From: Vicinamibacterales bacterium
Lineage (GTDB): Bacteria > Acidobacteriota > Vicinamibacteria > Vicinamibacterales > UBA8438
Direction: 5' to 3'
DNA length: 59,885 nucleotides
Assembly (NCBI GenBank): GCA_029940535.1
Contig: JAPYUM010000011.1
Location: 1-59,885, forward strand
A model generated the notes under the pieces. The model was not told the DNA's origin and did not search any database. It saw only the letters and a list, made by a program, of their open reading frames with translations. The position numbers were made by a program, and so were the translations under genes. Every line of letters begins with the position of its first letter. The first letter of the stretch is position 1. This document shows, piece after piece, positions 20,299 through 41,984 of this stretch.

Positions 20299-21933
20299 TC
20301 AGCGCGCCCCGGCGGACTCGTCTTCCGCCGCGTCGGGGTCGACCGCGCCGAGCTCGCGCAGGACGTCGGCGGTGTTCCCATCCGGGGCCCGGTCCGCCAG
20401 TATGGAGCTTCGTTCCCGGCCGGCGGCCGCCGCGATGGCCAGTTGCAGGGGCGTGCGCCCGCTCCCATTCTCTAGGTTCAGATCGGCGCCCTGCTCGACG
20501 AGCAGCCGCACCACGGTCGTGAAGTTGAGCTGGGCCGCAGCATGGAGAGCGGCGCCGCCACGCGCGTCGGTCTGGTTGACGTCGGCGCCGAACTCGACCG
20601 CGACCCGAACCGAATCCAGAACTTTTTGGGCTTCCTCATTCTGGTCGCCCGCCGAGCCCAGGAAGAAGCGTCCCTTGTTGGCAGGGCCGCGGAGTGCCGC
20701 GAGAAGCGGCGCCACGAACCCGCCGGCGTTGTACGGAGCCCCGACACCGCCGGCGCGCTCGAACACCGGTCTCCACAATTCGAGCGTGGTCAACCGTGGA
20801 TCAGCCCCGGCCGCCACCAGATCGCGCATGATGTTGGGCTCACGAAAGTACGCCGCCAGCCAGTAGGGCGTCGCGCTCACGAGCGCTGGGTTGAAGGCCC
20901 AGTCCTGACTGGTCCGCCTCAACGGTGTGCCACTCTCGAGACGCAGGTCCGGGTCCGCTCCGTGTTTCAGCAGTGCTTCGACAAGGCGTTCCTCACCCCG
21001 AAGCGTCGCCGCATGTAACGCGGTGTACCCGGCGCCGATGGCGTCCGGATCAGCCCCCTCGTCCAGCAGGAACGCGGCGAACTCAGACTGCCCGCTGTGC
21101 GCGGCCACCACGAGAGGGGTGGCGCCGGTGGGCGCGGCGGCGTCGACATCCGCGCCGGCACCGAGCACCAGTTTGGCTGACTCGATGTCACCATGTCGGG
21201 CGGCAAACAGCAACGAGGTAAACCCGCCGCGGTTCCACATCATCCCTTGGTCGTACTGCGAGGCGTTCGTATTGGCGGCATGCATCAGCCGCGGCCGCTC
21301 CATGGACCGGGCCGTCACGTCCGCGCCGTGCTCGATGAGGGCAGACACCACCGCGTGGTGCCCTTGCGCGACGGCCCACATGAGGGCGGTCTGTCCCCGG
21401 GTCGTCTCGGTCGCATTGACGTCGGCGCCAGCCGCCACCAACGCATTCACCGCATCGACACTCCCGGTCCGCGACGCGGTCATGATCGGGGTCTCGCCCT
21501 CGGGCAGCGCGACGTTCGGGCGGGCCCCCGCCGCCAAGAGACGCAGCACCATCGGGGTGCTCCCGTTGTCAGCGGCGAGCCAGAGCGCGGTGGCACCCAG
21601 TTCGTTGGCCACGCTGACATCGGCGCCGGCGTCGATCAGCAGGTTGACAATCGCCAGGTTGTCGCGGAACACCGCCCAATGCAGCGCCGTGGCTCCGTCG
21701 GGCTGCGCCGAATCGACATCCGTCCCCTCGCCCAGCAGAGCCGCAACCGCGGCGGGGTCTTCTGACTTCACCGCCGCGATGAGCGGCACCTCGTCCGCCT
21801 CCAGGCCGAGTGACCGCGCGGCCCCCGGCGTCGGCCAACCTGTCAGTCCGGCGCACACCACCAGCGCCACACACAGACGCATTGGCGGCTTGAGGACTCG
21901 GAAAGAGCACAGAAGGGAGGTACGCAGATGCAT
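20299..21933 (-). CDS. Secreted ankyrin-repeat protein
   Basis: A 544-residue exported protein with roughly ten ankyrin repeats (for example GATALHWAVFRDNLAIVNLL, GQTALMWAVAQGHHAVVSAL, GATPLVVAAHSGQSEFAAFL). The start at 21933 is preferred because GGAG lies nine bases upstream; the first in-frame ATG at 21948 has no ribosome site. A signal peptide covers the N-terminus through GWPTPGAARS. Two stretches (about 220-240 and 390-430) are not canonical repeats. The tail is acidic (DPDAAEDESAGAR). It is divergent from the DUF1592/DUF1552 pair, a neighbourhood I recall for these families; it may be a periplasmic binding partner. Confidence 0.82.
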   Translation of the reverse strand: MHLRTSLLCSFRVLKPPMRLCVALVVCAGLTGWPTPGAARSLGLEADEVPLIAAVKSEDPAAVAALLGEGTDVDSAQPDGATALHWAVFRDNLAIVNLLIDAGADVSVANELGATALWLAADNGSTPMVLRLLAAGARPNVALPEGETPIMTASRTGSVDAVNALVAAGADVNATETTRGQTALMWAVAQGHHAVVSALIEHGADVTARSMERPRLMHAANTNASQYDQGMMWNRGGFTSLLFAARHGDIESAKLVLGAGADVDAAAPTGATPLVVAAHSGQSEFAAFLLDEGADPDAIGAGYTALHAATLRGEERLVEALLKHGADPDLRLESGTPLRRTSQDWAFNPALVSATPYWLAAYFREPNIMRDLVAAGADPRLTTLELWRPVFERAGGVGAPYNAGGFVAPLLAALRGPANKGRFFLGSAGDQNEEAQKVLDSVRVAVEFGADVNQTDARGGAALHAAAQLNFTTVVRLLVEQGADLNLENGSGRTPLQLAIAAAAGRERSSILADRAPDGNTADVLRELGAVDPDAAEDESAGAR

Positions 21934-22067
21934 CGACGTCATCTCCATGGGGGGGACCTTGTGGGCGCGGCCGGCACTGCCGATTGAGCCCGATCCTACC
22001 GCAGCCGATCGCGATTGACAACGGACGACGTCTGCGGCGACACTAGCCTATCTTGTACTGTAATTGG

Positions 22068-24587
22068 ATGACGACCTCGCAGAAAGGCCGGTCAGTGGGC
22101 AGACGCGTGGGCGCGGTCGGAGCGGTGGTAGTAGCGGTGGCCACTTGGGCCTCGCTGACCCCCCAGGCCGCCGGGCAACAGCCGGATGTCGAGCCCTCGG
22201 CGACCGCCGTCTCGCCACAACGCGCCCTGGTTGACGAGTACTGCGTCACCTGCCACAACGGCGACTACGTCAACGGCACCGATGAGCCCCGATCGCTCCT
22301 GATCTCGCAACTGCGCGCCGTGGGCCTGGCGCTGGATGACGTCAACGTCGACAACGTCGCCGAACATCCCGCAGTCTGGGAGAGCGTGGTGCGCAAGCTG
22401 CGGGTGGGCGCCATGCCGCCGCAGCCGAGACCTCGCCCTGACAAGGCACGCTATGACGGCTTTCGACGCTGGCTCGAGGACGAGCTCGACCGCGCGGCCG
22501 AGGCGAACCCCAATCCCGGCCGCACCCAAGCATTCCACCGACTGAATCAGACGGAGTACCGAAACGTGATTCGGGACCTGCTGGACCTCGACATTGATGT
22601 CGCGGAGTGGATTCCAGCCGACTCCCCCGATCGGTATGGGTTCGACAACAACGCCGGCGCGCTCTCGCTCTCCCCCGCGCTCTTCGGGCGCTACGTCTCC
22701 GCCTCTCGAAAGATCAGCCGACTGGCAATCGGTCGGGCACCGGCCGGTGGCACCGTCATCAAGACCTACGACGTCCCGCTCCGGCGGGTGCAGGACACCC
22801 AGCAAAGCGAAGATTTGCCATTCGGGTCGCGCGGTGGGACGGCGGTGCGACATCACTTCCCGGTCGACGGCGAGTATCTGGTCAAGCTGCGGCTGCGCAC
22901 CAACTATGTGGGCTACGTGCGGGGCATCGACCAGGCCCACGACGTCGAGATTCGCTTGGACGGTCGTCGTATCAGGCAGTTCACGTTCGGCGGCGAGGCG
23001 CCCGGCATGCCGGCCCCGATGAGTTTCGCGGGCAATGTGCGTGGTGACGACGTGTGGGAGTCCTACACGCTGCACGCCGACGATGGCATCGAAGTGCGCA
23101 TCAACGTGGATGCCGGACCCCACCTGATTGCCGTCTCGTTCCCACGCGAGACCTGGGAAGAAGACGGTGTGTTGCAGCCCCGCCAGACGGGGTTCGCGCT
23201 GGCCGTCGACGACATGCCGGACAGCAACCCGGCCCTGGACAACGTCCAGATCAGCGGACCCTACACGGTGGATGGACCGGGGCAGACGCCGACACGGGCG
23301 AAGGTGTTCACCTGCACGCCGGCCACTGTGGCCGACGAGGTGCCGTGCGCCACCGACATCCTGTCAACACTGGCGCGACGTGCCTATCGGCGTCCCGCTA
23401 CCGACGCCGACGTTCGCACGCTACTCGGATTCTTCGAAGCGGGTCGAGCCGGAGGCAGTTTCGACGAGGGCATCGGCTTTGCCCTCGAGCGGTTGTTGGC
23501 AGACCCGGAGTTTCTCTTTCGGATCGAGAACGACCCGGTGGACGGCCAGCCCGGTATGACCTACGCGCTACGCGACGTGGAGCTGGCCTCGCGACTCTCG
23601 TTCTTCTTGTGGAGCAGCATCCCGGACGACGCATTGATGTCGACGGTGGAGAACGGCACCCTTGGCACTACGGAGGTGCTCGAACAACAGGTGCGACGGA
23701 TGCTGTCCGACCCCCGGTCCAGGTCGCTGGTGGACAACTTCGCCGGTCAGTGGCTGCATCTGCGAAATATTCAGGGCGCCTACCCCGATCCGATCGCGTT
23801 CCCGGATTTCGACGAGAATCTGCGTGAGGCGTACCAGATGGAGACCGAGCTCTTCATCGAGAGCCTGATACGCGATGACGCGAGCCTGCTCGAGTTGCTG
23901 AGCGCGGACTACACCTTCGTCAACGAGCGCTTGGCTCGGCACTATGAGATTCCGAACATCTACGGCAACCGATTCCGGAAGGTGACGTTCGAACCGGGTG
24001 AGCGCGCCGGACTGTTGAGTCACGGCAGCCTGATGACGGTAACCTCGTATCCAAACCGGACCTCGCCGGTCTTGCGCGGGAAATGGGTACTCGAGAACCT
24101 TCTGGGCGCTCCCCCGCCGGAGCCGCCCCCCAACGTGCCGACGCTGGAGGAAGAGAACGAGGACGGCGAACCACTCTCCATGCGTCAGGCAATGGTGCAG
24201 CATCGGGAAAACCCGGCCTGTGCGGTGTGTCATAACGCCATGGACCCGATCGGCTTCTCGCTCGAAAATTTCGACGCGGTCGGTGCCTGGCGTGAATTGA
24301 GCGAGGACGGCACGCCAATCGACGCCTCGGGTGCCCTACCGGACGGCGGGGCCTTCACCGGACCGACCGGCCTGCGCGATCTGCTGCTGGACCGCCCCGA
24401 CGACTTCGTCGGGACCGTGACCGAAAAATTGATGGGATACGCCCTGGGGCGTGGGCTCGAGTACTACGACGCCCCGACCGTTCGCAAGATCGTCCGCGAA
24501 GCGGCCAGCGACGACTACCGCTGGTCATCTATCATCCTCGGGATTGTGCAGAGCGACGCGTTCCAGATGCGGAGAACCGACTCATGA
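22068..24587 (+). CDS. DUF1592/DUF1588/DUF1585 cytochrome-like protein
   Basis: An 839-residue secreted protein of the multi-domain type carrying the planctomycete cytochrome-like and DUF1587/1592/1588/1585 modules. The start at 22068 opens a signal peptide (to about AAGQQ). A haem motif CVTCH is at 59-63, followed by FHRLNQTEYRNVIRDLL (DUF1587), LARRAYRRPATDADV (DUF1595), LASRLSFFLWSSIPD (DUF1592), the DUF1588 region with NPACAVCHNAMDPIGF, and a C-terminal DUF1585 helix bundle. Function is unproven; the haem and CxxCH sites suggest redox activity in the periplasm. The stop overlaps the DUF1552 start as ATGA. Confidence 0.88.
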   Translation: MTTSQKGRSVGRRVGAVGAVVVAVATWASLTPQAAGQQPDVEPSATAVSPQRALVDEYCVTCHNGDYVNGTDEPRSLLISQLRAVGLALDDVNVDNVAEHPAVWESVVRKLRVGAMPPQPRPRPDKARYDGFRRWLEDELDRAAEANPNPGRTQAFHRLNQTEYRNVIRDLLDLDIDVAEWIPADSPDRYGFDNNAGALSLSPALFGRYVSASRKISRLAIGRAPAGGTVIKTYDVPLRRVQDTQQSEDLPFGSRGGTAVRHHFPVDGEYLVKLRLRTNYVGYVRGIDQAHDVEIRLDGRRIRQFTFGGEAPGMPAPMSFAGNVRGDDVWESYTLHADDGIEVRINVDAGPHLIAVSFPRETWEEDGVLQPRQTGFALAVDDMPDSNPALDNVQISGPYTVDGPGQTPTRAKVFTCTPATVADEVPCATDILSTLARRAYRRPATDADVRTLLGFFEAGRAGGSFDEGIGFALERLLADPEFLFRIENDPVDGQPGMTYALRDVELASRLSFFLWSSIPDDALMSTVENGTLGTTEVLEQQVRRMLSDPRSRSLVDNFAGQWLHLRNIQGAYPDPIAFPDFDENLREAYQMETELFIESLIRDDASLLELLSADYTFVNERLARHYEIPNIYGNRFRKVTFEPGERAGLLSHGSLMTVTSYPNRTSPVLRGKWVLENLLGAPPPEPPPNVPTLEEENEDGEPLSMRQAMVQHRENPACAVCHNAMDPIGFSLENFDAVGAWRELSEDGTPIDASGALPDGGAFTGPTGLRDLLLDRPDDFVGTVTEKLMGYALGRGLEYYDAPTVRKIVREAASDDYRWSSIILGIVQSDAFQMRRTDS

Positions 24588-25918
24588 TGATCACAAAGAA
24601 GGCTATTCCCCGCCGCACCGTGTTGCGCGGCATCGGCGCCGGCCTGGCGCTTCCGCTGCTCGACGGGATGGTCCCAGCATTCGCCGCCATCCGCAACAGC
24701 GCCGCCAACCCGGTGCGTCGGTTCGGCGTCGTCTATGTGCCGAACGGGATGGCCATGAAGCACTGGACGCCCGACGGCGAGGGCACCGGCTTCGAGACCA
24801 CGCGGCTGCTGGATCCGATCGCCGCGTATCGTGATCAGATGACCCTGCTGACCGGTCTCAACGGCGTGCCCAGCAACGCTGGCGTGCATGCCAGCGCGGC
24901 CACGCGTTTCCTGACCGGGGTCACCCCGGCCCGCACCGAGTCGAACCTGCGAGCGGGCATCTCCGTCGACCAGCTCCTGGCACGCGAGTTCGCGAAACAC
25001 ACGCAGCTCGGCTCGCTCGAGCTCGCGCTGGATAGCCGTGACGTCTCAGGGTCGTGCGATGTCGGCTTCAGTTGTACCTACACCAACACGATCTCGTGGC
25101 GCAACGAGACCACCCCGCTGATGGGTGAGAACAACCCGCGTGCGGTGTTCGAGCAGCTCTTCGGCGACAGCGGGTCAACCGACCCGGCCGCGCGTCTGGC
25201 TCGGATGCAGAAGGACCAGAGCATTCTCGACTCGGTCACCGAAAAGATCGATTCGCTCCAGAGCGGGCTTGGCGCGTCCGACCGACTCCGGGTCAACGAG
25301 TATCTCGACGCAGTGCGCGACATCGAGCGCCGCATCCAGATGGCCGAGGCCCAGAGCGATCGCGAACTCCCCGAAGTGGACCAGCCGGCCGGCGTACCGG
25401 CGACCTACACCGAGCACGCCAAGCTCATGTTCGACCTCCTGCTGCTGGCGTATCAGACCGACCTGACCCGGGTCAGCACCTTCATGCTGGCACGTGAGAT
25501 CAGCGGCCGGACATACCCGGAAATCGGGGTACCTGACTCGCATCATCCAACCTCACACCACCGGGACGACCCGACGCTCTACGAGAAAGTCGCGAAGATC
25601 AACACGTTCCACCTGACGTTGTTCTCGCATTTCCTCGAGAAAGCGCGGGCGACGCCCGACGGCGACGGCACGTTGCTCGACCACATGGTCATGCTGTACG
25701 GGGCCGGGATGTCTGACAGCAACCGCCACGACAACAGGGGCCTGCCGCTCGTGATGGTGGGTGGCGGGTCAGGTCATCTCAAGCCGGCCGGACACATCCG
25801 GTATGAGGAGCGCACACCGATCAGCAACCTGCACCTCACCATTCTCGACAAGATGGGGGTGCCGGTCGACCAGATGAGTGACAGCACCGGCAAGCTGGAT
25901 CTGCTCAGCGTCGGCTAG
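24584..25918 (+). CDS. Tat-exported DUF1552 protein
   Basis: A 444-residue DUF1552 protein, the usual partner of DUF1592-type cytochromes and related to the DUF1501 sulfatase-like fold. A twin-arginine signal is visible near the start (PRRTVLRGIGAGLALPLL). Family motifs include RFGVVYVPNGMAMKHWTP, LTGLNGVPS, ISVDQLLA, SGSCDVGFSCTYTNTISW, and GVPDSHHPTSHHRDDP, where a dense histidine run may bind metal. The ATG overlaps the upstream stop by 4 bp; a second ATG three bases later is equally possible. Folding before export fits a cofactor- or metal-containing periplasmic protein. Confidence 0.87.
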   Translation: MMITKKAIPRRTVLRGIGAGLALPLLDGMVPAFAAIRNSAANPVRRFGVVYVPNGMAMKHWTPDGEGTGFETTRLLDPIAAYRDQMTLLTGLNGVPSNAGVHASAATRFLTGVTPARTESNLRAGISVDQLLAREFAKHTQLGSLELALDSRDVSGSCDVGFSCTYTNTISWRNETTPLMGENNPRAVFEQLFGDSGSTDPAARLARMQKDQSILDSVTEKIDSLQSGLGASDRLRVNEYLDAVRDIERRIQMAEAQSDRELPEVDQPAGVPATYTEHAKLMFDLLLLAYQTDLTRVSTFMLAREISGRTYPEIGVPDSHHPTSHHRDDPTLYEKVAKINTFHLTLFSHFLEKARATPDGDGTLLDHMVMLYGAGMSDSNRHDNRGLPLVMVGGGSGHLKPAGHIRYEERTPISNLHLTILDKMGVPVDQMSDSTGKLDLLSVG

Positions 25919-31240: not shown

Positions 31241-32413
31241 TCAGGCCGCCCGCTCCACCAGCGCGCGCATCGCCGCCTGCACGCCCTGGGCGTCGTGTGG
31301 AATCTCTGCCAACGACAGTCCCATCTCCACTCCGGCCAGGGTCCCGAGCAGACTCACGTCGTTGAGATCGCCGAGATGCCCGATGCGAAACACCGTGCCC
31401 GCCAATCGAGCCAGCCCGACCCCAAGCGAGAGGTCAAACCGATCGAGCACGACGCTTCGGAGTCGATCCGCGTCATGGCCGTCGGGGGTCACCACGGCTG
31501 TGATCGAGGCGCTGTACTCGTCCGGGTTGGCACACAGAATGTCGAGCCCCCAGGCCCGCACGGCGTGTCGCGTCGCCTCGGCATGACGCTTGTGCCGGGC
31601 AAACACGTTGGACAAGCCCTCTTCGCGCAGCATCGCCAGCGCTTCCTGCAGTCCGTAGAGTAGATTCGTCGCCGGAGTGTAGGGGAAAAACCCTTTCTCG
31701 TTGGCCGTGAGCACGGCGGTCCAATCCCAGAACGACCGCGGCATCGCCGCCTGCGCATGCGCCGCCAACGCTTTGTCACTGACCGCGTTGAAGCTCAGAC
31801 CCGGCGGCAACATCAGTCCCTTTTGCGAGGCTCCGACCGTGACGTCGACCGACCACTCGTCATGGCGATAATCCATGGATCCGAGTGACGAAATTGTGTC
31901 GACCAGGAAGAGCGCCGGATGGCTGGCGCGGTCGAGCGCGTCACGGACCTGCGCGATCCGGCTGACGACCCCGGTCGACGTCTCGTTGTGCACCACGCAG
32001 ACCGCCTTGATGGCGTGCTCCCGATCATCGGCGAGCCGCGTCTCCACCGCGGACGGGTCGACGCCGTGACGCCAATCGCCCGGTATCCAGTCGACCTCGA
32101 GCCCGAGTCGCTCCGCAATCTGCTTCCACAATGTCGCGAACTGCCCCGTTTCCACCATCAGGATCCGGTCCCCGGGCGAGAGGCAGTTGACCAGGGCCGC
32201 CTCCCAGGCGCCGGAACCGGAAGCCGGGAAGATCACCACCGGATGCGTCGTCTTGAACACCTCCCGCACACTCTCGAGCAACTCGTAGCCCAGTGCCTGG
32301 AACTCCGGTCCGCGATGGTCGATGGTCGGGCGTGACATGGCCCGCAATACTCGACCAGGGACGTTCGTCGGTCCGGGTATCTGCAGGAAGTGGCGGCCAG
32401 CGCGATAGGACAT
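31241..32413 (-). CDS. Alanine/serine-glyoxylate-type aminotransferase
   Basis: A 390-residue fold-type I PLP enzyme of the AGXT/serine-glyoxylate group. Family marks are IPGPTNVPGRVLRAM, a substrate/PLP loop FPASGSGAWEAAL, VVHNETSTGV, Asp172 in LVDTISSLGS and the Schiff-base Lys198 in VGASQKGLMLPPG. A C-terminal TVFRIGHLGDLN carries the conserved Arg that binds the substrate carboxylate. It likely interconverts glyoxylate and glycine with alanine or serine. Neighbours (PQQ dehydrogenase, ADOP permease) give no clear pathway; a link to C1 or glyoxylate metabolism is plausible but inferred. Confidence 0.88.
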   Translation of the reverse strand: MSYRAGRHFLQIPGPTNVPGRVLRAMSRPTIDHRGPEFQALGYELLESVREVFKTTHPVVIFPASGSGAWEAALVNCLSPGDRILMVETGQFATLWKQIAERLGLEVDWIPGDWRHGVDPSAVETRLADDREHAIKAVCVVHNETSTGVVSRIAQVRDALDRASHPALFLVDTISSLGSMDYRHDEWSVDVTVGASQKGLMLPPGLSFNAVSDKALAAHAQAAMPRSFWDWTAVLTANEKGFFPYTPATNLLYGLQEALAMLREEGLSNVFARHKRHAEATRHAVRAWGLDILCANPDEYSASITAVVTPDGHDADRLRSVVLDRFDLSLGVGLARLAGTVFRIGHLGDLNDVSLLGTLAGVEMGLSLAEIPHDAQGVQAAMRALVERAA

Positions 32414-35236: not shown

Positions 35237-37012
35237 TCACTCTCCGGGCGCCGACATGACCACGGGCAGACGGTCTTCGACCACGTCGACCACGAGTTCC
35301 TGGCCCACGGCGAGCGTACGCGTGCGGTTCGTCTCGCGGGCGTTATATCGCGACGCCCCCCGAGCGCCAGGCGGGCCGCAGACGTGCAGGTCGATCGCTT
35401 CGTGGGTCCCCAGGTTGCGCACGAGGTGAATGGTGTCGCCCTCGGCGAACTCGGTGCGCTCCGACGGGCCAAGCTCCATGCGCCCGGTGACTCGAAGACG
35501 ATCTGTTCCGGCGCGCTCGAACTCGACGACCTCGACGGTTCCCTCGATGCGCCGACCCACGGCCGAGTAGTCGTGCGAATGGATGTGCGCCGTCGTGCCC
35601 GGCGTCCACAGGATTCCGACGAGTGACGAGCCGTGCTCCGCGCTGCGCCAGTAGGTCAGCCGCCGGTAATTGATGCCTCCCTGAATCGGGCTTTCGCGCA
35701 GCGAGACGAGCTCGCCGATGGCCGGCTGCACCCGGTCCATGACGCGCCGGGCGAGGCTCTCACTCACCGGGCCCTCCCGATCGAGCAGGTCGAGCACTTC
35801 GACCGCCTCGCGGAGGGTGAGCGGTTCACCCTCGTCGAGCCGGGCCCGCAGCGAGACCGCGGTGGGACCCCAGCGGCGAAACGCCGTGAACCCGAGACTC
35901 AGCACCACCAGCCCCCCGGCCACGTTCACGGCGGTCACGCCCGCCGCCCCGCTCACGAGCAGGCCCAGCGACAGCCCGGCGATCGTGACCCAGGCGGCCC
36001 CGGCGGTCAGGGCCACCCGCCACCCGACGTCGACGAGCGTGCGCAGATGAATCTGCAGGCCGATCGACGCGCACACCGTGGCGATGGCGAGGCCGACCAC
36101 GCCGTCGTTGAACGCCAGCAGTGCCGGCCACACGGCTCCGTCGGCGGCGAACACTCGATCACCGCCCATGCGCAGCCCAAACATCAGGAGATACCCCACG
36201 ACGAACAGCGGCAGGTACGCCGCCAGGCGGAGACGTAGGCTCTCTTCGGCCGGAGCACGCCGTCGGAGTTGGCTGAAGACGACCAGCAGCGGGCCAAGCA
36301 GCACGATCCGAACCGTCTTGCCCATCGCCGCCACGATGCTCTGGTCTTCCCCAAACTGCCCTCCCACGGCCACACTCGACGACAGGTCGTTCACGGCCAG
36401 ACCAGCCCACAGCCCAGCCGATTCGGCATCGAGCCCGAGCGCCGTCCCAACCGGTAACAGCGTCATCAACGCCACGACGCTGAAGAGAAAGATCGCGGTG
36501 ACGGCGAGCCCCTGGTCGCGGCGCCGCGCGAACACGGTGGGCGCCAGCGCGTTGATGGCCGACGCTCCGCAGACCATGGTGCCGATCGCCACCAGATCGG
36601 CCATCTCGCGCCTGAGCCCCAGCAACCCGGCCACGGCGTGGGCGATGAAGAACGTCGTCGGCAGCGTCACGACCAGGACGAGCACCACCCGGGCCAGCAG
36701 CTGCGTCTCGATGAGATCGGTGCTGGCCTTGAGCCCCATCAGCACGATGGCGAGACGCAGCACCCACTTGCCGGTGAAGCGAAGTCCGCGCTCGTAGGCA
36801 TCGCCCTCGCGACCACGATCAACCGCGAGCCCTATCCACGCTGCCACGGGAGAGTTCAGGACCAACGCGCCGAGACCGATCGCCATGACGACGGGCGAAA
36901 CCCACGGTGAACCGGAAGACACCACGGGGGTGAGCCACAACGCGACGGTCGCCAGCCCCGCCGCAAGCCCCAGCCCCGGGAGCTCACGACGGGACGGCAG
37001 CCAGGCAGGCAC
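35237..37012 (-). CDS. UPF0324 sulfate/sulfite-exporter-like protein fused to a thiol-dioxygenase cupin
   Basis: A 591-residue two-part protein (GTG at 37012, 22 bp after the cytochrome stop). Residues 12-375 are a YeiH/UPF0324 membrane domain with ten or so helices and the hallmark IGTMVCGASAINALAP (143-159); members are annotated as putative sulfate exporters. Residues 390-591 are soluble and match cysteine dioxygenase landmarks: NYRRLTYW (Arg for the substrate carboxylate), HIHSHDYSA giving iron ligands His478 and His480, third ligand His529 in GDTIHLVRN, and second-sphere His543 in DLHVCGPP. The Tyr of the eukaryotic Cys-Tyr crosslink is Cys545 here. Together with the SoxC/D-like genes just upstream it suggests thiol oxidation coupled to export of the oxidised product. 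Substrate and membrane side are inferred. Confidence 0.8.
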   Translation of the reverse strand: MPAWLPSRRELPGLGLAAGLATVALWLTPVVSSGSPWVSPVVMAIGLGALVLNSPVAAWIGLAVDRGREGDAYERGLRFTGKWVLRLAIVLMGLKASTDLIETQLLARVVLVLVVTLPTTFFIAHAVAGLLGLRREMADLVAIGTMVCGASAINALAPTVFARRRDQGLAVTAIFLFSVVALMTLLPVGTALGLDAESAGLWAGLAVNDLSSSVAVGGQFGEDQSIVAAMGKTVRIVLLGPLLVVFSQLRRRAPAEESLRLRLAAYLPLFVVGYLLMFGLRMGGDRVFAADGAVWPALLAFNDGVVGLAIATVCASIGLQIHLRTLVDVGWRVALTAGAAWVTIAGLSLGLLVSGAAGVTAVNVAGGLVVLSLGFTAFRRWGPTAVSLRARLDEGEPLTLREAVEVLDLLDREGPVSESLARRVMDRVQPAIGELVSLRESPIQGGINYRRLTYWRSAEHGSSLVGILWTPGTTAHIHSHDYSAVGRRIEGTVEVVEFERAGTDRLRVTGRMELGPSERTEFAEGDTIHLVRNLGTHEAIDLHVCGPPGARGASRYNARETNRTRTLAVGQELVVDVVEDRLPVVMSAPGE

Positions 37013-37034
37013 AGGACTGTGTTCTTGAAGACGG

Positions 37035-37733
37035 CTACCGTGCGGCGATGTCGGGCCGAGGATCGATGACAAACCCGTCACGGTTCGGCATCGCGATCCG
37101 TGGGAGGGTGTTGGCATCAACCGGGTCACGTTCGCCGACGAGGTCGTTGAGGAACAGCACGTAGGCCACCGCCGCGTAGACTTCGTCCACACCGAGCGAC
37201 CCCGGCTGGTTGAACGGCATGGCGCGGTTCACGTAGTCCCAGAGGGTCGTGGCGACCGGCCAGTAGCTACCGACGGTTTTCCGCGCTTGATCGGTCGCCA
37301 GCGATCCTTGTCCCCCCGCCAGCCGGGGATCCGGCCCCTCGGTCCCGGTCGGGCCATGACAGCCGGCACACCGCCGGTCGTAGAGGGCGCGTCCCTCGGC
37401 CGCAGTCGCCCCACCCGGCGGCAACTCGTCGCCGTCGGGACCGATGATCTCCCCCCAGGCCTCGATGTCCGACGCCGTCGCCGGGCTTCCAACCCCAGTG
37501 CGCGACCCCTGCGCAACCACCGGGCCAGCCCAGAGCATCGTCACCGCCGACACACCGATGATGGCCAAGACCAGCTTCCGGAGCGCGGCACCCGTCTGGC
37601 CAGGCCTGGCGAGGTGGGTTTTCCTGGCGAGGCGTTCGTCTGGCAAGGCGCGACGAGGAAGCAGCCAGGCAGGCTGTGACCGAGGTAGCAACGCAGTCCA
37701 GACGGACGCCTCGCCAGGAAAACGGCTAGACAT
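37035..37733 (-). CDS. SoxD-like monohaem cytochrome c
   Basis: A c-type cytochrome of the SoxD/sulfite-dehydrogenase partner type: CAGCH (Cys122-His126 of the 232-residue frame), GSYWPVATTLWDYVNRAMPF, PGSLGVDEVYAAVAYVLFLN and the terminal MPNRDGF. It probably receives electrons from the SoxC-like enzyme encoded upstream. The frame opens with an ATG at 37733 that overlaps the soxC-like stop, then reads through an inserted repeat (residues 4-39) before a normal signal peptide (LRKLVLAIIGVSAVTMLWAG, about 51-75). The true start may be a later non-ATG codon; the overlap start would put ~50 extra residues before the signal. SoxD proteins often have two haems; only one is seen. Confidence 0.82.
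   Translation of the reverse strand: MSSRFPGEASVWTALLPRSQPAWLLPRRALPDERLARKTHLARPGQTGAALRKLVLAIIGVSAVTMLWAGPVVAQGSRTGVGSPATASDIEAWGEIIGPDGDELPPGGATAAEGRALYDRRCAGCHGPTGTEGPDPRLAGGQGSLATDQARKTVGSYWPVATTLWDYVNRAMPFNQPGSLGVDEVYAAVAYVLFLNDLVGERDPVDANTLPRIAMPNRDGFVIDPRPDIAAR
37618..37723 (-). repeat. Dispersed inverted-repeat element, family 1, copy C
   Basis: A 106-bp, more diverged copy with ends GTTTTCCTGGCGAGGCG and CGCCTCGCCAGGAAAAC, read on the minus strand in the same orientation relative to its upstream gene as copies A and B. It begins two bases after the TAG of the soxC-like gene and lies wholly inside the open frame of the soxD-like gene without breaking it. Confidence 0.75.
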
Positions 37734-38961
37734 CGACGTTCTCCACGGTGCCGTCGCGACCGATGCGCCAGCCCTGAATCGCGTTGTTGTGGTAGCTCGA
37801 TTGGGTGCCTCGCACCGCGATCAGCGATGCTCGGGTCGGTTGCACGTCGCCGCTCTCGTCGATGCAACGGGAGGCCAGCGTCGTCTCCGACCCGTCCCAG
37901 CTCCAGTCGAAGCGGAACCGTGTGTGCGCCAGCGGCAGGACCGGCCCTTGCAGTTGCGCCTCGGACCACGACCGACCGCCATCGGTCGACACCTCGACCC
38001 GTTGCACGCGCCCGCGCCCCGACCACGCCAGACCAGAGATTTGATAGAAACCGGGACCGTCCAGCCGATGCCCCCCGGACGGACGGGTGATCACCGACTT
38101 GGAGTCCATGACGAACGTGTACTGCCGCGCCTCACCGTTCGGCATCAGGTCGGTGTACTTGGCCGTCTCCTCGCGGGTGAGGTACGACTGGTCCACGAGC
38201 TGCAAACGACGCAGCCACTTGATGGAGATGTTGCCCTCCCACCCCGGGATCAACAACCGCAGCGGGTACCCCTGGGCGGGTCGAATCGCTTCGCCGTTCT
38301 GGCCGTAGGCGACCAGGATGTCGTCCATCGCCTTGTCGAGCGGCACGCTCCGCGTCAAGCGACACGCATCGGCCCCCTCGGCCACCATCCAGCTGGCGTC
38401 GGGCCGCACGCCCGCCTCGCGCAGCAGCACCGACACCGGCACCCCGGTCCACTCACTGCAACTCGTCATGCCGAACGCCGCCTGGGCATCGGTCTCCGGC
38501 TCGGCCGGAGACCATTTGACCCGGCCGTTGCCGGAGCACTCGACGAAGTAGACGCGGGTCACGGCCGGCATCCGCTGGAGTTCGTCGACCGAGAAGACCA
38601 GCGGACGGTCGACCAGACCATCAATCAGCAACCGATGCTCTGCCGGATCGATGTCAGGAATCCCTGCGTGATGTCGCTCGAAATGCAGCGCCGACGGCGT
38701 GATGGTGCCGTTGAGGTCCTGCAGCGGGGTCAGACTTCCGGCCGCCTGTTCGTAGCGCGACCCGCGCACGCGGCGCAGCGTGCTCTCGAACCCCGAGCGC
38801 TCGCCGTAGCCGCCAACTCCCCCGCCCAGCGACCGCCCGTTCCGCTCCTGCCCGACCAGCGTCGAGGGCCGAAGCACGGCCGCCGCCGACCCCAGCGTCG
38901 CCGCCTTCAAGAATCCGCGGCGGCCTCGCCCAGTTTCGGATCGTCTCTCATCACCTGCCAT
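37726..38961 (-). CDS. SoxC-like sulfite/sulfane dehydrogenase, molybdopterin subunit
   Basis: A 411-residue Tat-exported enzyme of the sulfite oxidase family. The Tat signal is GRRGFLKAATLG (Arg14-Arg15). Catalytic Cys142 lies in YFVECSGNG and should bind the molybdenum cofactor. Further family motifs are TSCSEWTGVPVSVLL, GYPLRLLIPGWEGNISIKWL (cofactor and substrate-binding region), and a C-terminal dimerisation domain (RVQRVEVSTDGGRSW). It has no haem domain, so the SoxD-like cytochrome directly downstream is the expected partner. The rest of a Sox system (XYZAB) is absent from the window; here the pair is joined to a thiol-dioxygenase/exporter fusion, favouring sulfite as substrate. Confidence 0.87.
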   Translation of the reverse strand: MAGDERRSETGRGRRGFLKAATLGSAAAVLRPSTLVGQERNGRSLGGGVGGYGERSGFESTLRRVRGSRYEQAAGSLTPLQDLNGTITPSALHFERHHAGIPDIDPAEHRLLIDGLVDRPLVFSVDELQRMPAVTRVYFVECSGNGRVKWSPAEPETDAQAAFGMTSCSEWTGVPVSVLLREAGVRPDASWMVAEGADACRLTRSVPLDKAMDDILVAYGQNGEAIRPAQGYPLRLLIPGWEGNISIKWLRRLQLVDQSYLTREETAKYTDLMPNGEARQYTFVMDSKSVITRPSGGHRLDGPGFYQISGLAWSGRGRVQRVEVSTDGGRSWSEAQLQGPVLPLAHTRFRFDWSWDGSETTLASRCIDESGDVQPTRASLIAVRGTQSSYHNNAIQGWRIGRDGTVENVDV

Positions 38962-39017: not shown

Positions 39018-41984
39018 GTGTCACTGAATACGCCCCCTCAGGAATACGAGAAGGCGGAGCCAGTGGGATTCGACCAATCCCGTATACTCGCCCGCGTGAG
39101 GGAACAGCTCCGGCACGACCTCGAGTCCTCGCTCGACGGTGACGTCCGCTTCGACGCCGTCACGCGGTTGCTGTATTCCACTGACGCGAGCGTGTATCAG
39201 ATCGAACCAACCGGCGTGGTCATGGTGCGGTCCCGGGACGATGTGGTGCGCACCATCGAGATTGCCGGCCGGCACGGGGTGTCGATCACGGTGCGCGGCG
39301 GCGGCACGTCGCAGGCGGGACAGGCGATCGGCGCCGGACTCCAGCTCGACACTGCCAAGTACTTCAATCGTCTTCTCGAGGTGAATGTCGAGGAGCGGTG
39401 GGCCCGGGTCGAGCCAGGCATCGTGCTCGACGAGTTGAACGCACACCTGTTGCCGCACGGTCTTCGATTCGCGCCGGACATCTCCACCGCCAGCCGGGCC
39501 ACCATCGGCGGCATGGTGAGCAACAACTCCAGCGGCGCCCGCTCGGTGCTCTACGGCAAGACCATCGACCATGTGCTCGACCTCCATGTCGCCCTGAGCG
39601 ATGGCTCCATCGTGCATTTTCGCGCCTTGGAGGGGACCGAACTGGAGACGGTGTGTGACACCGACACGCTCGAAGGTCGATGCTACCGCGAGGTGCGACG
39701 GCTGGGGGCCGAGCACGCGGCCGAAGTCGCGCGCCGCTTCCCAAAAATCCTGCGCCGTGTCGGCGGCTACAACCTGGACGCGTTCAGCGACCCGGACCAA
39801 CCGTGCAACCTGGCCAAACTGGTGGTCGGCTCCGAGGGCACGCTGGGCGTCCTCGTCGAAGCCCGGCTGAACCTGATGCCGTTACCACGCGCGACAGCCG
39901 TCCTGACGATCGAGTTCGACGAACTGCTCGACGCACTGGGGGCGACGCCGACCATCCTGGTCCATCAACCGTCCGCCATCGAGGTGATGGACCGGTTCAT
40001 CCTGGACCACGCGCGGGAAAGTCCGGCGCTCGATGCGATCCGTCGAACCGTGCTCCAGAGCGACGACACGCCCGGTGCCCTGCTCTGTGTCGAACTCTCC
40101 GCCGACGACGCCGCGAGCCTTCCGGGTCGACTCACCGCTATCGAGCAGGATCTGCGCGCGCGGGGCATGACCGTCCGTACTGCCCGAGCCGAGACGGCGG
40201 ACGCGCAGGCGCGTATCTGGAAGTTGCGACAGGCGTCATTGGGGCTCTCGATGGCGATGAAGGGCGATGCGAAAAGCATCTCGTTCGTCGAGGACACCGC
40301 CGTCGATCCGGAGCGGCTGCGGGCCTATATCGAGCGGTTCCTGGCGGTGGTGCACCGCCATGGCAGCCGCACCGGTATCTATGCGCACGCCTCAGTCGGG
40401 TGCTTGCACGTGCGCCCGGTGGTCAATCTGAAGACCTCCGACGGCGTGGCGCAGTTCGAGGCGATCGCGCACGACATCGCGGATCTGGTGCTGGAGTTTG
40501 GCGGCGCACTCTCGGGCGAGCACGGAGACGGCCTGGTCCGCGGACCGTTCATGGAACGTATGTTCGGCTCGCAGCTCTACGAGGCGTTTCGCGACATCAA
40601 GCGCACGTTCGACCCCGACGGGCGGTTCAATCCGGGCAAGATTGTCGACACCCCGCCGTTGACGGACAACCTCCGGTACGGCGCCGGCTACGAAACGCCG
40701 AACCCGCCCGCCCGGTTCGACTACGGCGAGTATGGCGGACTGGGCCGCGCGGTCGAGATGTGCAGTGGGGTCGGCGCCTGCCGGAAGACGCTGGACGGGA
40801 CGATGTGTCCGTCGTACATGGTGACCCGCGATGAGGCGCATTCCACCCGCGGCCGGGCCAATGCGCTGCGTTACGCGATGAACGGCCAACTCGACGAGGC
40901 CGGTCTCGGCGACCAGGGGGTGTACAACACCCTCGATCTCTGCCTGGAGTGCCGCGCCTGCAAGGCCGAATGCCCGGTCGGCGTCGACATGGCGCGTTTC
41001 AAGAGCGAGTTCCTCGCCGACTACTGGAGCCGCCACGGTACCCCCCTCAGAGCCCGGTTGCTGGGCGGCATCCACGAACTGTCGGCCTGGGCCAGCCCCT
41101 TCGCGCGGCTGCTCAACCCACTGGTGGCGAGCCCGGTGGTCCGGCTCCTGAACGAGCGGCTCCTGGGCCTGGACCGGCGCCGTCGGCTGCCGGCGTGGAC
41201 CACGCGAACGCTGGCGGCGCGCTGGCTCGAGCGGCCGGTCACCAAAGACCCGGACGCCGTCGTCCTGTTCAACGACACGTTCACGAACTACTACCACCCC
41301 GAGATCGGGCTGGCGGTGGCGGCGCTCAGTGACCGGGCCGGCATCGGGATCGGGCTGGGGCCGGATGCGTGTTGCGGGCGACCGCTGATCTCTCAGGGGC
41401 TCCTGGACGAGGCGCGGGGTCAAGCGGTGGAGACGACGCGGAGGCTTCACCCGATCGTCGCGTCCGGGAAGCCGGTGATCGTGCTCGAACCCAGCTGCCT
41501 CTCATCGCTACGCGACGACATCCCCGCCCTGCTGGGTGGCGAGGACGGGCGCCGCGCCCGTGAGGTCGCCAACGGCTGTCTGCTGTTCGAAGAGTGGCTC
41601 GACGGGGTCCTCACGGATGAAGCCACGCGGCTCAGCTTCCGACCTGGCCCGAAACGGTTGCTGCTGCACGGACACTGTCATCAGAAGTCGCTCGGCCTGG
41701 TGCCGCCGGCCCGGGCGCTGCTCAACCGGATCCCGAACACCGAGGTGATCGAACTCGACGCCGGCTGTTGCGGGATGGCCGGATCGTTCGGCTACGCGCG
41801 CGAGCACTTCGATGTGTCGCGACAAGTTGGCGAGCGGCGGCTCCTCCCGGCCGCTCGGGCGCTGGGTCCGGACGAGGCGCTGGTGGCGTCCGGCGTCTCC
41901 TGTCGACACCAGGTGCATGATCTGGCCGGCGTCACGGCCCGACACCCGGCCGAGCTGCTCGCCTCTCTCCTGGCCCCGTTATAA
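39018..41984 (+). CDS. FAD- and Fe-S-containing D-2-hydroxyacid dehydrogenase (Dld/GlcD-type fusion)
   Basis: A 988-residue GlcD-GlcF-like fusion. The N-terminal part has a PCMH FAD-binding domain (GVSITVRGGGTSQAGQ, RFAPDISTASRATIGG) and the FAD-linked oxidase C-terminal domain with GALSGEHGDGLVRG near 500. Two cysteine clusters for 4Fe-4S centres follow (CSGVGACRKTLDGTMCPS near 580; CLECRACKAECPVG near 640), then two CCG domains (DACCGRP near 785, DAGCCGMAG near 915). It probably oxidises D-lactate, glycolate or a related acid and feeds electrons to quinone or a cytochrome. A GTG at 39018 is annotated; a GTG at 39063 with AAGGCGGAG upstream is a good alternative. It is divergent from the sulfur operon across about 56 bp. 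Confidence 0.88.
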   Translation: MSLNTPPQEYEKAEPVGFDQSRILARVREQLRHDLESSLDGDVRFDAVTRLLYSTDASVYQIEPTGVVMVRSRDDVVRTIEIAGRHGVSITVRGGGTSQAGQAIGAGLQLDTAKYFNRLLEVNVEERWARVEPGIVLDELNAHLLPHGLRFAPDISTASRATIGGMVSNNSSGARSVLYGKTIDHVLDLHVALSDGSIVHFRALEGTELETVCDTDTLEGRCYREVRRLGAEHAAEVARRFPKILRRVGGYNLDAFSDPDQPCNLAKLVVGSEGTLGVLVEARLNLMPLPRATAVLTIEFDELLDALGATPTILVHQPSAIEVMDRFILDHARESPALDAIRRTVLQSDDTPGALLCVELSADDAASLPGRLTAIEQDLRARGMTVRTARAETADAQARIWKLRQASLGLSMAMKGDAKSISFVEDTAVDPERLRAYIERFLAVVHRHGSRTGIYAHASVGCLHVRPVVNLKTSDGVAQFEAIAHDIADLVLEFGGALSGEHGDGLVRGPFMERMFGSQLYEAFRDIKRTFDPDGRFNPGKIVDTPPLTDNLRYGAGYETPNPPARFDYGEYGGLGRAVEMCSGVGACRKTLDGTMCPSYMVTRDEAHSTRGRANALRYAMNGQLDEAGLGDQGVYNTLDLCLECRACKAECPVGVDMARFKSEFLADYWSRHGTPLRARLLGGIHELSAWASPFARLLNPLVASPVVRLLNERLLGLDRRRRLPAWTTRTLAARWLERPVTKDPDAVVLFNDTFTNYYHPEIGLAVAALSDRAGIGIGLGPDACCGRPLISQGLLDEARGQAVETTRRLHPIVASGKPVIVLEPSCLSSLRDDIPALLGGEDGRRAREVANGCLLFEEWLDGVLTDEATRLSFRPGPKRLLLHGHCHQKSLGLVPPARALLNRIPNTEVIELDAGCCGMAGSFGYAREHFDVSRQVGERRLLPAARALGPDEALVASGVSCRHQVHDLAGVTARHPAELLASLLAPL

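Follow-up and report, generated by a model that had tools for sequence, protein, structure and literature searches.

In a stretch of 59,885 nucleotides from a Vicinamibacterales bacterium (Acidobacteriota; contig JAPYUM010000011.1), referred to here as the window, a UPF0324/YeiH-type membrane exporter is joined in a single reverse-strand gene to a C-terminal domain that is probably a remote cysteine-dioxygenase-like cupin, that is, a putative thiol dioxygenase. The fusion is a genuine and conserved domain architecture. It is a new one, built from known families and undescribed as far as our literature search reached; no fusion of UPF0324 with cysteine dioxygenase (CDO) was described in the literature searched, in agreement with a preliminary description of this DNA, prepared from the letters alone, whose author knew of no system of this kind. 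The gene follows two others, which encode a SoxC-like molybdoenzyme and a SoxD-like cytochrome c. One plausible explanation of the arrangement, to which we would assign a probability of about 0.5, is a membrane-tethered unit in which thiol oxidation, export of sulfite and periplasmic oxidation by the SoxCD-like enzyme would follow one another. The features relevant to this proposal are listed below.

35237..37012, reverse strand: fusion protein of a UPF0324/YeiH-type exporter and a thiol-dioxygenase-like cupin, 591 residues, GTG start
35960..37012, reverse strand: UPF0324/YeiH membrane domain, residues 1-351 (PF03601 at residues 12-336)
35882..35938, reverse strand: extra transmembrane helix predicted from hydropathy, residues ~359-377, then Arg-rich FRRW
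35240..35827, reverse strand: probable cysteine-dioxygenase-like cupin, residues 396-591 (sequence and profile comparisons)
35660..35662, reverse strand: R451, aligned with the substrate arginine (CDO Arg60)
35573..35581, reverse strand: metal motif H478-x-H480, aligned with CDO His86/His88
35426..35428, reverse strand: third metal histidine H529, aligned with CDO His140
35384..35386, reverse strand: second-sphere histidine H543, aligned with CDO His155, with Cys545 at the place of CDO Tyr157
37035..37733, reverse strand: SoxD-like monoheme cytochrome c, 232 residues, CAGCH at 122-126 (2xts_B, PF00034, heme motif)
37726..38961, reverse strand: SoxC-like molybdenum sulfite/sulfane dehydrogenase, 411 residues (TIGR04555, 2xts_A)

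Our searches covered 28 genomes of the family, 162 of the order, 193 of the class and 396 of the phylum, together with one scan of GTDB contigs. Besides the window's own genome (G000), the same fusion occurs in one open frame in G401 (81% identity), in L062, which belongs to genome G516 (69%), and in G485 (41%). The copy in G403 ends at a contig end near residue 330, and that in G407 (L091, 6850-8741, reverse strand) has both halves, with the reading frame broken near residue 34 and again near residue 372. The closeness of one G407 frame break to the domain junction could be taken as a sign that the fusion is a sequencing or assembly artefact joining two genes. Such an origin is, however, extremely improbable, as three other genomes, including one at 41% identity, read through the junction in frame, the second break of G407 lies near residue 34, and purifying selection acts on both halves. 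The ratio of nonsynonymous to synonymous substitution rates (dN/dS) is about 0.06-0.3 in both domains, and the joining stretch is less constrained. The break near residue 34 indicates that the G407 copy is damaged or badly read and not naturally split, and we thus rejected it as an example of a natural unfused state. A frameshift or assembly join at residues 375-390, the weak point named in the preliminary description, is excluded, since G401 and L062 share the frame there and the divergent G485 is in frame too. The GTG start is also backed by the starts of the G401 and L062 copies, which align with it. In the exporter tree the six fusions form one clade (support 100/100), apart from 22 stand-alone UPF0324 proteins, and most other UPF0324 members of the class end at the YeiH profile end. 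Taken together, the shared in-frame architecture, the single clade and purifying selection indicate that the fusion is old, rare and maintained. None of 461 plasmid records of UPF0324 covered 80% of the fusion query, and two scans of viral contigs found no CDO relatives.

The exporter identity proposed earlier is upheld, as the fusion scores 149.3 bits against PF03601 (cut-off 24.5; E 1.5e-43) over positions 1-303 of the 304 in the profile. Experiments identified YeiH as the chief determinant of sulfite resistance in Salmonella, and the Salmonella protein is predicted to cross the membrane with nine helices and to end in the periplasm (PMC12880088); for relatives of YeiH, export of sulfite towards sulfite dehydrogenases in the periplasm was proposed (PMC11582611). 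The extra helix of the fusion is absent from stand-alone UPF0324 proteins, most of which stop 0-6 residues from the YeiH profile end. Since a periplasmic YeiH end followed by one further helix and an Arg-rich stretch (the positive-inside rule) would return the chain to the cytosol, hydropathy suggests that the cupin faces this compartment.

The C-terminal domain of the window fusion gave no Pfam match of its own, and its likeness to CDO comes from other comparisons. It matched PDB entry 6xb9, a CDO-family protein, in phmmer (E 0.003) and annotated plasmid cysteine dioxygenases in tblastn (E 2e-4 or weaker); in hhalign the cupin aligned with genuine CDO_I proteins from the Acidobacteriota at a probability of 97.8% (E 1.3e-12), and with a second CDO group at 95.2%. 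In an alignment of 15 CDO-like proteins, eleven of them stand-alone CDOs, Tyr449, Arg451, Trp469, Gly472, His478, His480, Gly491, His529, Asn533 and His543 are invariant, and Tyr449, Arg451, His478, His480, His529 and His543 align with CDO Tyr58, Arg60, His86, His88, His140 and His155. The residues of the three-histidine metal site (HxH and a later His) are present as H478, H480 and H529, which are kept also in G485, and the substrate arginine as R451, shared with the stand-alone CDOs. For CDO itself, the residue roles and the Ser-His-Tyr outer-sphere motif are described in PMC8503633. No other CDO-like protein was found in the genome that encodes the fused cupin of the window. A stand-alone CDO_I protein of G132 (L132, 6151-6774, forward strand) carries Cys in place of Tyr157 and reads HRH at the HxH motif; it may be a relative of the fused type.

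Association of the two families is not confined to the fusion. We compared UPF0324 and CDO_I hits across the same 396 phylum genomes, taking as a pair two genes within 3 kb. Among the matches listed, 60 genomes had both families and in 4 of these the genes were paired, against 0.11 expected (Poisson P 5e-6, an approximate value, as genomes were taken as independent and placement as uniform). The stand-alone CDO gene comes first in G119 and G071, on the same strand as the UPF0324 gene and adjoining or overlapping it; in G347 and G115 the two genes are convergent. As the four paired UPF0324 proteins fall into two groups of the exporter tree, both outside the fusion clade, the CDO-UPF0324 association has probably arisen more than once. 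Such independent pairs, together with the sulfite resistance due to YeiH (PMC12880088), strengthen the sulfur-oxyanion chemistry suggested in the preliminary description.

Coordinates confirm that the three genes stand in tight order on the reverse strand, as first described: the SoxC-like gene, then the monoheme cytochrome c gene, then the fusion, with an 8 bp overlap between the SoxC-like stop and the cytochrome ATG and 22 nt between the cytochrome stop and the fusion start. The SoxC-like and SoxD-like identities hold as well. The former protein scores 558.2 bits against TIGR04555, above the equivalog cut-off of 420, and its best PDB match is 2xts_A, SoxC of Paracoccus pantotrophus (E 1.2e-115); that of the cytochrome is 2xts_B, SoxD (E 1.4e-32). 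The SoxC-like protein has a twin-Arg leader (RRGFLK), and its molybdenum ligand is Cys142. Its Arg96, Arg147, Tyr269 and Arg384 correspond to the sulfite-binding Arg138, Arg190, Tyr322 and Arg450 of chicken sulfite oxidase; Arg147 is present in 10 of 10 SoxC orthologues, and in P. pantotrophus SoxC the Arg190 position is occupied by Gly. The best SoxB score in the genome was 65.9 bits against a cut-off of 550, with control genomes likewise below it, and SoxY gave no match in six genomes, in a search without a positive control. With no SoxB above the cut-off and no SoxY found, free sulfite appears the likelier substrate of the SoxCD-like enzyme. Matches to SoxC/SorA-type molybdoenzymes number two to nine per family genome, five of them in G000.

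Several observations weigh against the proposed unit. The exporter domain scores 68.1 bits against TIGR00698, the YeiH subfamily, whose cut-off of 232.6 is likewise missed by the relatives P0002, P0003 and G485. The gathering cut-off of PF05995 is missed, with no CDO_I hit in the window protein; the best subthreshold CDO_I score among the fusion relatives is 14.8 against 23 (L062). Thus, of the two profiles that the preliminary description named for a check of the protein, PF03601 recognizes it and the CDO profile stays below its cut-off, the likeness to CDO being drawn from hhalign, phmmer and tblastn. The same description was correct as to H478, H480, H529, H543 and R451, but the CDO ligand set is not full as it had stated, since the Cys93-Tyr157 cofactor pair is replaced by Val485 and Cys545. 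The Ser-His-Tyr motif is likewise replaced, by D541-H543-C545. AlphaFold models made from two-sequence input reached a predicted local distance difference test score (pLDDT) of 41 for the full fusion and 50 for the C-terminal domain, too low for the models to be of use, and Foldseek with the latter placed human CDO among the top hits without significance (E 0.18, root-mean-square deviation 15). Finally, of the CDO set, G485 retains the metal histidines only; it lacks Tyr449, R451 (Trp), W469 and H543 (Gln). This most divergent fusion may thus act on a different substrate or serve as a sensor.

A sensory role could be extended to all fusions. The cupin would then be no enzyme; it would bind a metal and a thiol, sulfite or oxygen, and gate the exporter. 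The three metal histidines are indeed the only residues of the CDO set constant across the complete fusions, and the Cys-Tyr pair is missing from all of them. We nevertheless find a pure sensor unlikely, because in the four closest fusions, all with Cys in place of Tyr157, there is no change at Tyr449, Arg451, the second-sphere histidine or the cupin motifs, as is usual for enzymes, and the independent pairing of UPF0324 genes with those of genuine CDO_I enzymes favours a catalytic partner.

If the cupin is catalytic, its substrate could be a persulfide, such as glutathione or protein persulfide, from which sulfite would be freed directly, as by the ETHE1-type persulfide dioxygenases of another fold, and then removed by the exporter. 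Direct release would make a middle step unnecessary, and in G485 the divergent fusion closely follows two YeeE/YedE-type sulfur-transporter genes (PF04143), which lie directly upstream of it (L174, 3006-3990, reverse strand). However, that neighbour is found in one genome only, the conservation of Arg451, a carboxylate-binding residue, suggests a small thiol with a carboxylate, and we know of no established three-histidine cupin that acts as a persulfide dioxygenase, which counts further against this substrate; it seems quite improbable to us. Next to the G407 fusion, a candidate persulfide dioxygenase was rejected, as this neighbour with a metallo-beta-lactamase fold matches ComEC and hydrolase models.

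The remaining objections to the proposed unit concern its last step. The SoxCD genes adjoin the fusion in 3 of the 6 genomes only; they lie elsewhere in the genome in two (G407 and G516), and were not found in one, G485 (84% complete), which gave no SoxC match. In addition, Trp204 of sulfite oxidase is not retained in the window SoxC. The fusion might thus be unrelated to SoxCD, the shared operon being a feature of one group of genera. Such independence would agree with the occurrence of the SoxC-cytochrome pair without the fusion in at least 6 further genomes of the family, and with the position of the L062 and G407 fusions away from SoxCD. On the other hand, gene order and short gaps are kept in G000, G401 and G403, representing three genera, with a synonymous divergence (dS) that is about 0.8 or higher for G000 against G401, and the genomes of the L062 and G407 fusions hold the SoxCD pair elsewhere. 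We therefore regard a complete lack of relation as rather unlikely. The operon described in the preliminary description is confirmed as a tight trio in three genera, with the qualification that the SoxCD link is optional.

Beside the trio, a gene on the forward strand at 39018-41984, divergent from the SoxC gene, encodes a protein of the glycolate/D-lactate dehydrogenase type, an FAD-linked oxidase with fused Fe-S and CCG domains. An inverted repeat at 37619-37722, with TTTTCCTGGCGAGGCG at both ends, lies just past the cytochrome start codon and is read in frame into the leader. The 16-mer has 28 genomic sites (one mismatch allowed), often as opposite pairs ~88 bp apart, so that it looks like a repetitive extragenic palindromic (REP)-type element; a similar stretch occurs at the same place in G403. 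Farther away, at 20299-25918, lie ankyrin-repeat, DUF1592-type and DUF1552-type genes, and relatives of this second trio (44-60% identity) immediately precede SoxC in G401 and G403.

In the light of these data, a membrane-tethered unit might operate as follows, its iron binding, catalysis, substrate, topology, sulfite export and flow to SoxCD all being inferred. The extra helix would place the C-terminal cupin on the cytoplasmic face, where Fe(II) would be bound via H478, H480 and H529, and a small carboxylate-bearing thiol, held by R451, would be oxidised to a sulfinate. The sulfinate would yield sulfite either spontaneously, as sulfinosuccinate does, or after transamination, as in the case of cysteine sulfinate. 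Toxic sulfite would be expelled to the periplasm by the YeiH domain and converted there to sulfate by the co-encoded SoxCD-like enzyme, with electrons passing to cytochrome c. The oxidation and export steps are linked by the fusion itself, and the step from sulfite to sulfate by the operon, in three genera only. A more speculative version, which we consider doubtful, is that sulfite is formed and exported by a single polypeptide, in which a membrane-anchored cupin, a new type of thiol or persulfide dioxygenase without the Cys-Tyr machinery of CDO, would pass its product straight to the channel, with no build-up of free sulfite in the cytosol.

A separate problem is the release of sulfite from the sulfinate, which the preliminary description considered a missing step, having seen no sulfinate aminotransferase beside the fusion. 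In fact, a class-V aminotransferase is encoded 2.8 kb downstream of the fusion (31241-32413, reverse strand), nearest to the L-aspartate--glyoxylate aminotransferase BhcA (453 bits, below the cut-off of 650). As cysteine sulfinate is an analogue of aspartate, this protein is a conceivable, but unlinked, sulfinate transaminase; it was rejected as part of the operon, since it was not found near the fusion in G401. To our knowledge, aspartate aminotransferases are ubiquitous. Sulfinosuccinate formed by mercaptosuccinate dioxygenase (Msdo) releases sulfite spontaneously (PMC5373536). Because of these two circumstances, the absence of a dedicated transaminase would not be a real gap.

UPF0324/YeiH proteins are widespread, and their substrate, sulfate or sulfite, is debated. 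The fusion, the independent pairs in other Acidobacteriota lineages and the adjacent sulfite dehydrogenase together give direct genomic evidence that UPF0324 handles sulfur oxyanions derived from thiols, and oxidation and export could be assayed together in a single protein. Moreover, with the genes for a probable periplasmic sulfite oxidation adjoining that of the fusion, sulfite could be formed, expelled and rendered harmless by the products of a single short operon.

The closest known systems resemble the arrangement in part. P. pantotrophus SoxCD (2xts) is the closest solved relative of the molybdenum subunit and the cytochrome. It works with SoxYZ on protein-bound sulfane sulfur. The window SoxC differs from it by Arg147 (Gly in P. 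pantotrophus), the window cytochrome has one heme motif, and in the genome of the window SoxB stays below the cut-off and SoxY was not found, the latter in a search without a positive control. With bacterial CDO (PF05995) and 6xb9, which we take to be a 3-mercaptopropionate dioxygenase, the fusion shares the three metal histidines, the second-sphere histidine and the cupin motifs; it has Arg60 like CDO, whereas 6xb9 has Gln there. Unlike bacterial CDO, it lacks Cys93, has Cys for Tyr157 and Asp for the Ser of the Ser-His-Tyr motif, scores below the family cut-off and is anchored to the membrane by its exporter half.

Salmonella YeiH and P. pantotrophus SuyZ (UPF0324, PSE family; PMC12880088, PMC11582611) belong to the same membrane family and are connected with sulfite resistance or proposed sulfite/sulfate export, but they have neither a cupin nor the extra C-terminal helix, and their C-terminus is predicted to be periplasmic. 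The Msdo pathway of Variovorax and Advenella likewise employs a cupin homologous to CDO and a sulfinate that frees sulfite spontaneously, and separate exporters, Pse and TauE, were proposed for the sulfur oxyanions; its enzyme, however, is soluble and not fused, and shares no operon with an exporter as far as that report states (PMC5373536). A similar logic of enzyme plus exporter, with TauE, was suggested for feather-degrading Streptomyces (PMC7181669). If our proposal is true, the fusion would be a bacterial counterpart of fungal sulfite excretion by Cdo1 and Ssu1, in which a thiol dioxygenase and a sulfite exporter also act in sequence, although as two separate fungal proteins and without a periplasmic sulfite dehydrogenase. 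Ssu1 belongs to a transporter family other than UPF0324. According to Grumbt et al. 2013, as summarised in PMC10652793 and PMC10655438, it is by means of this pair that dermatophytes turn cysteine into excreted sulfite.

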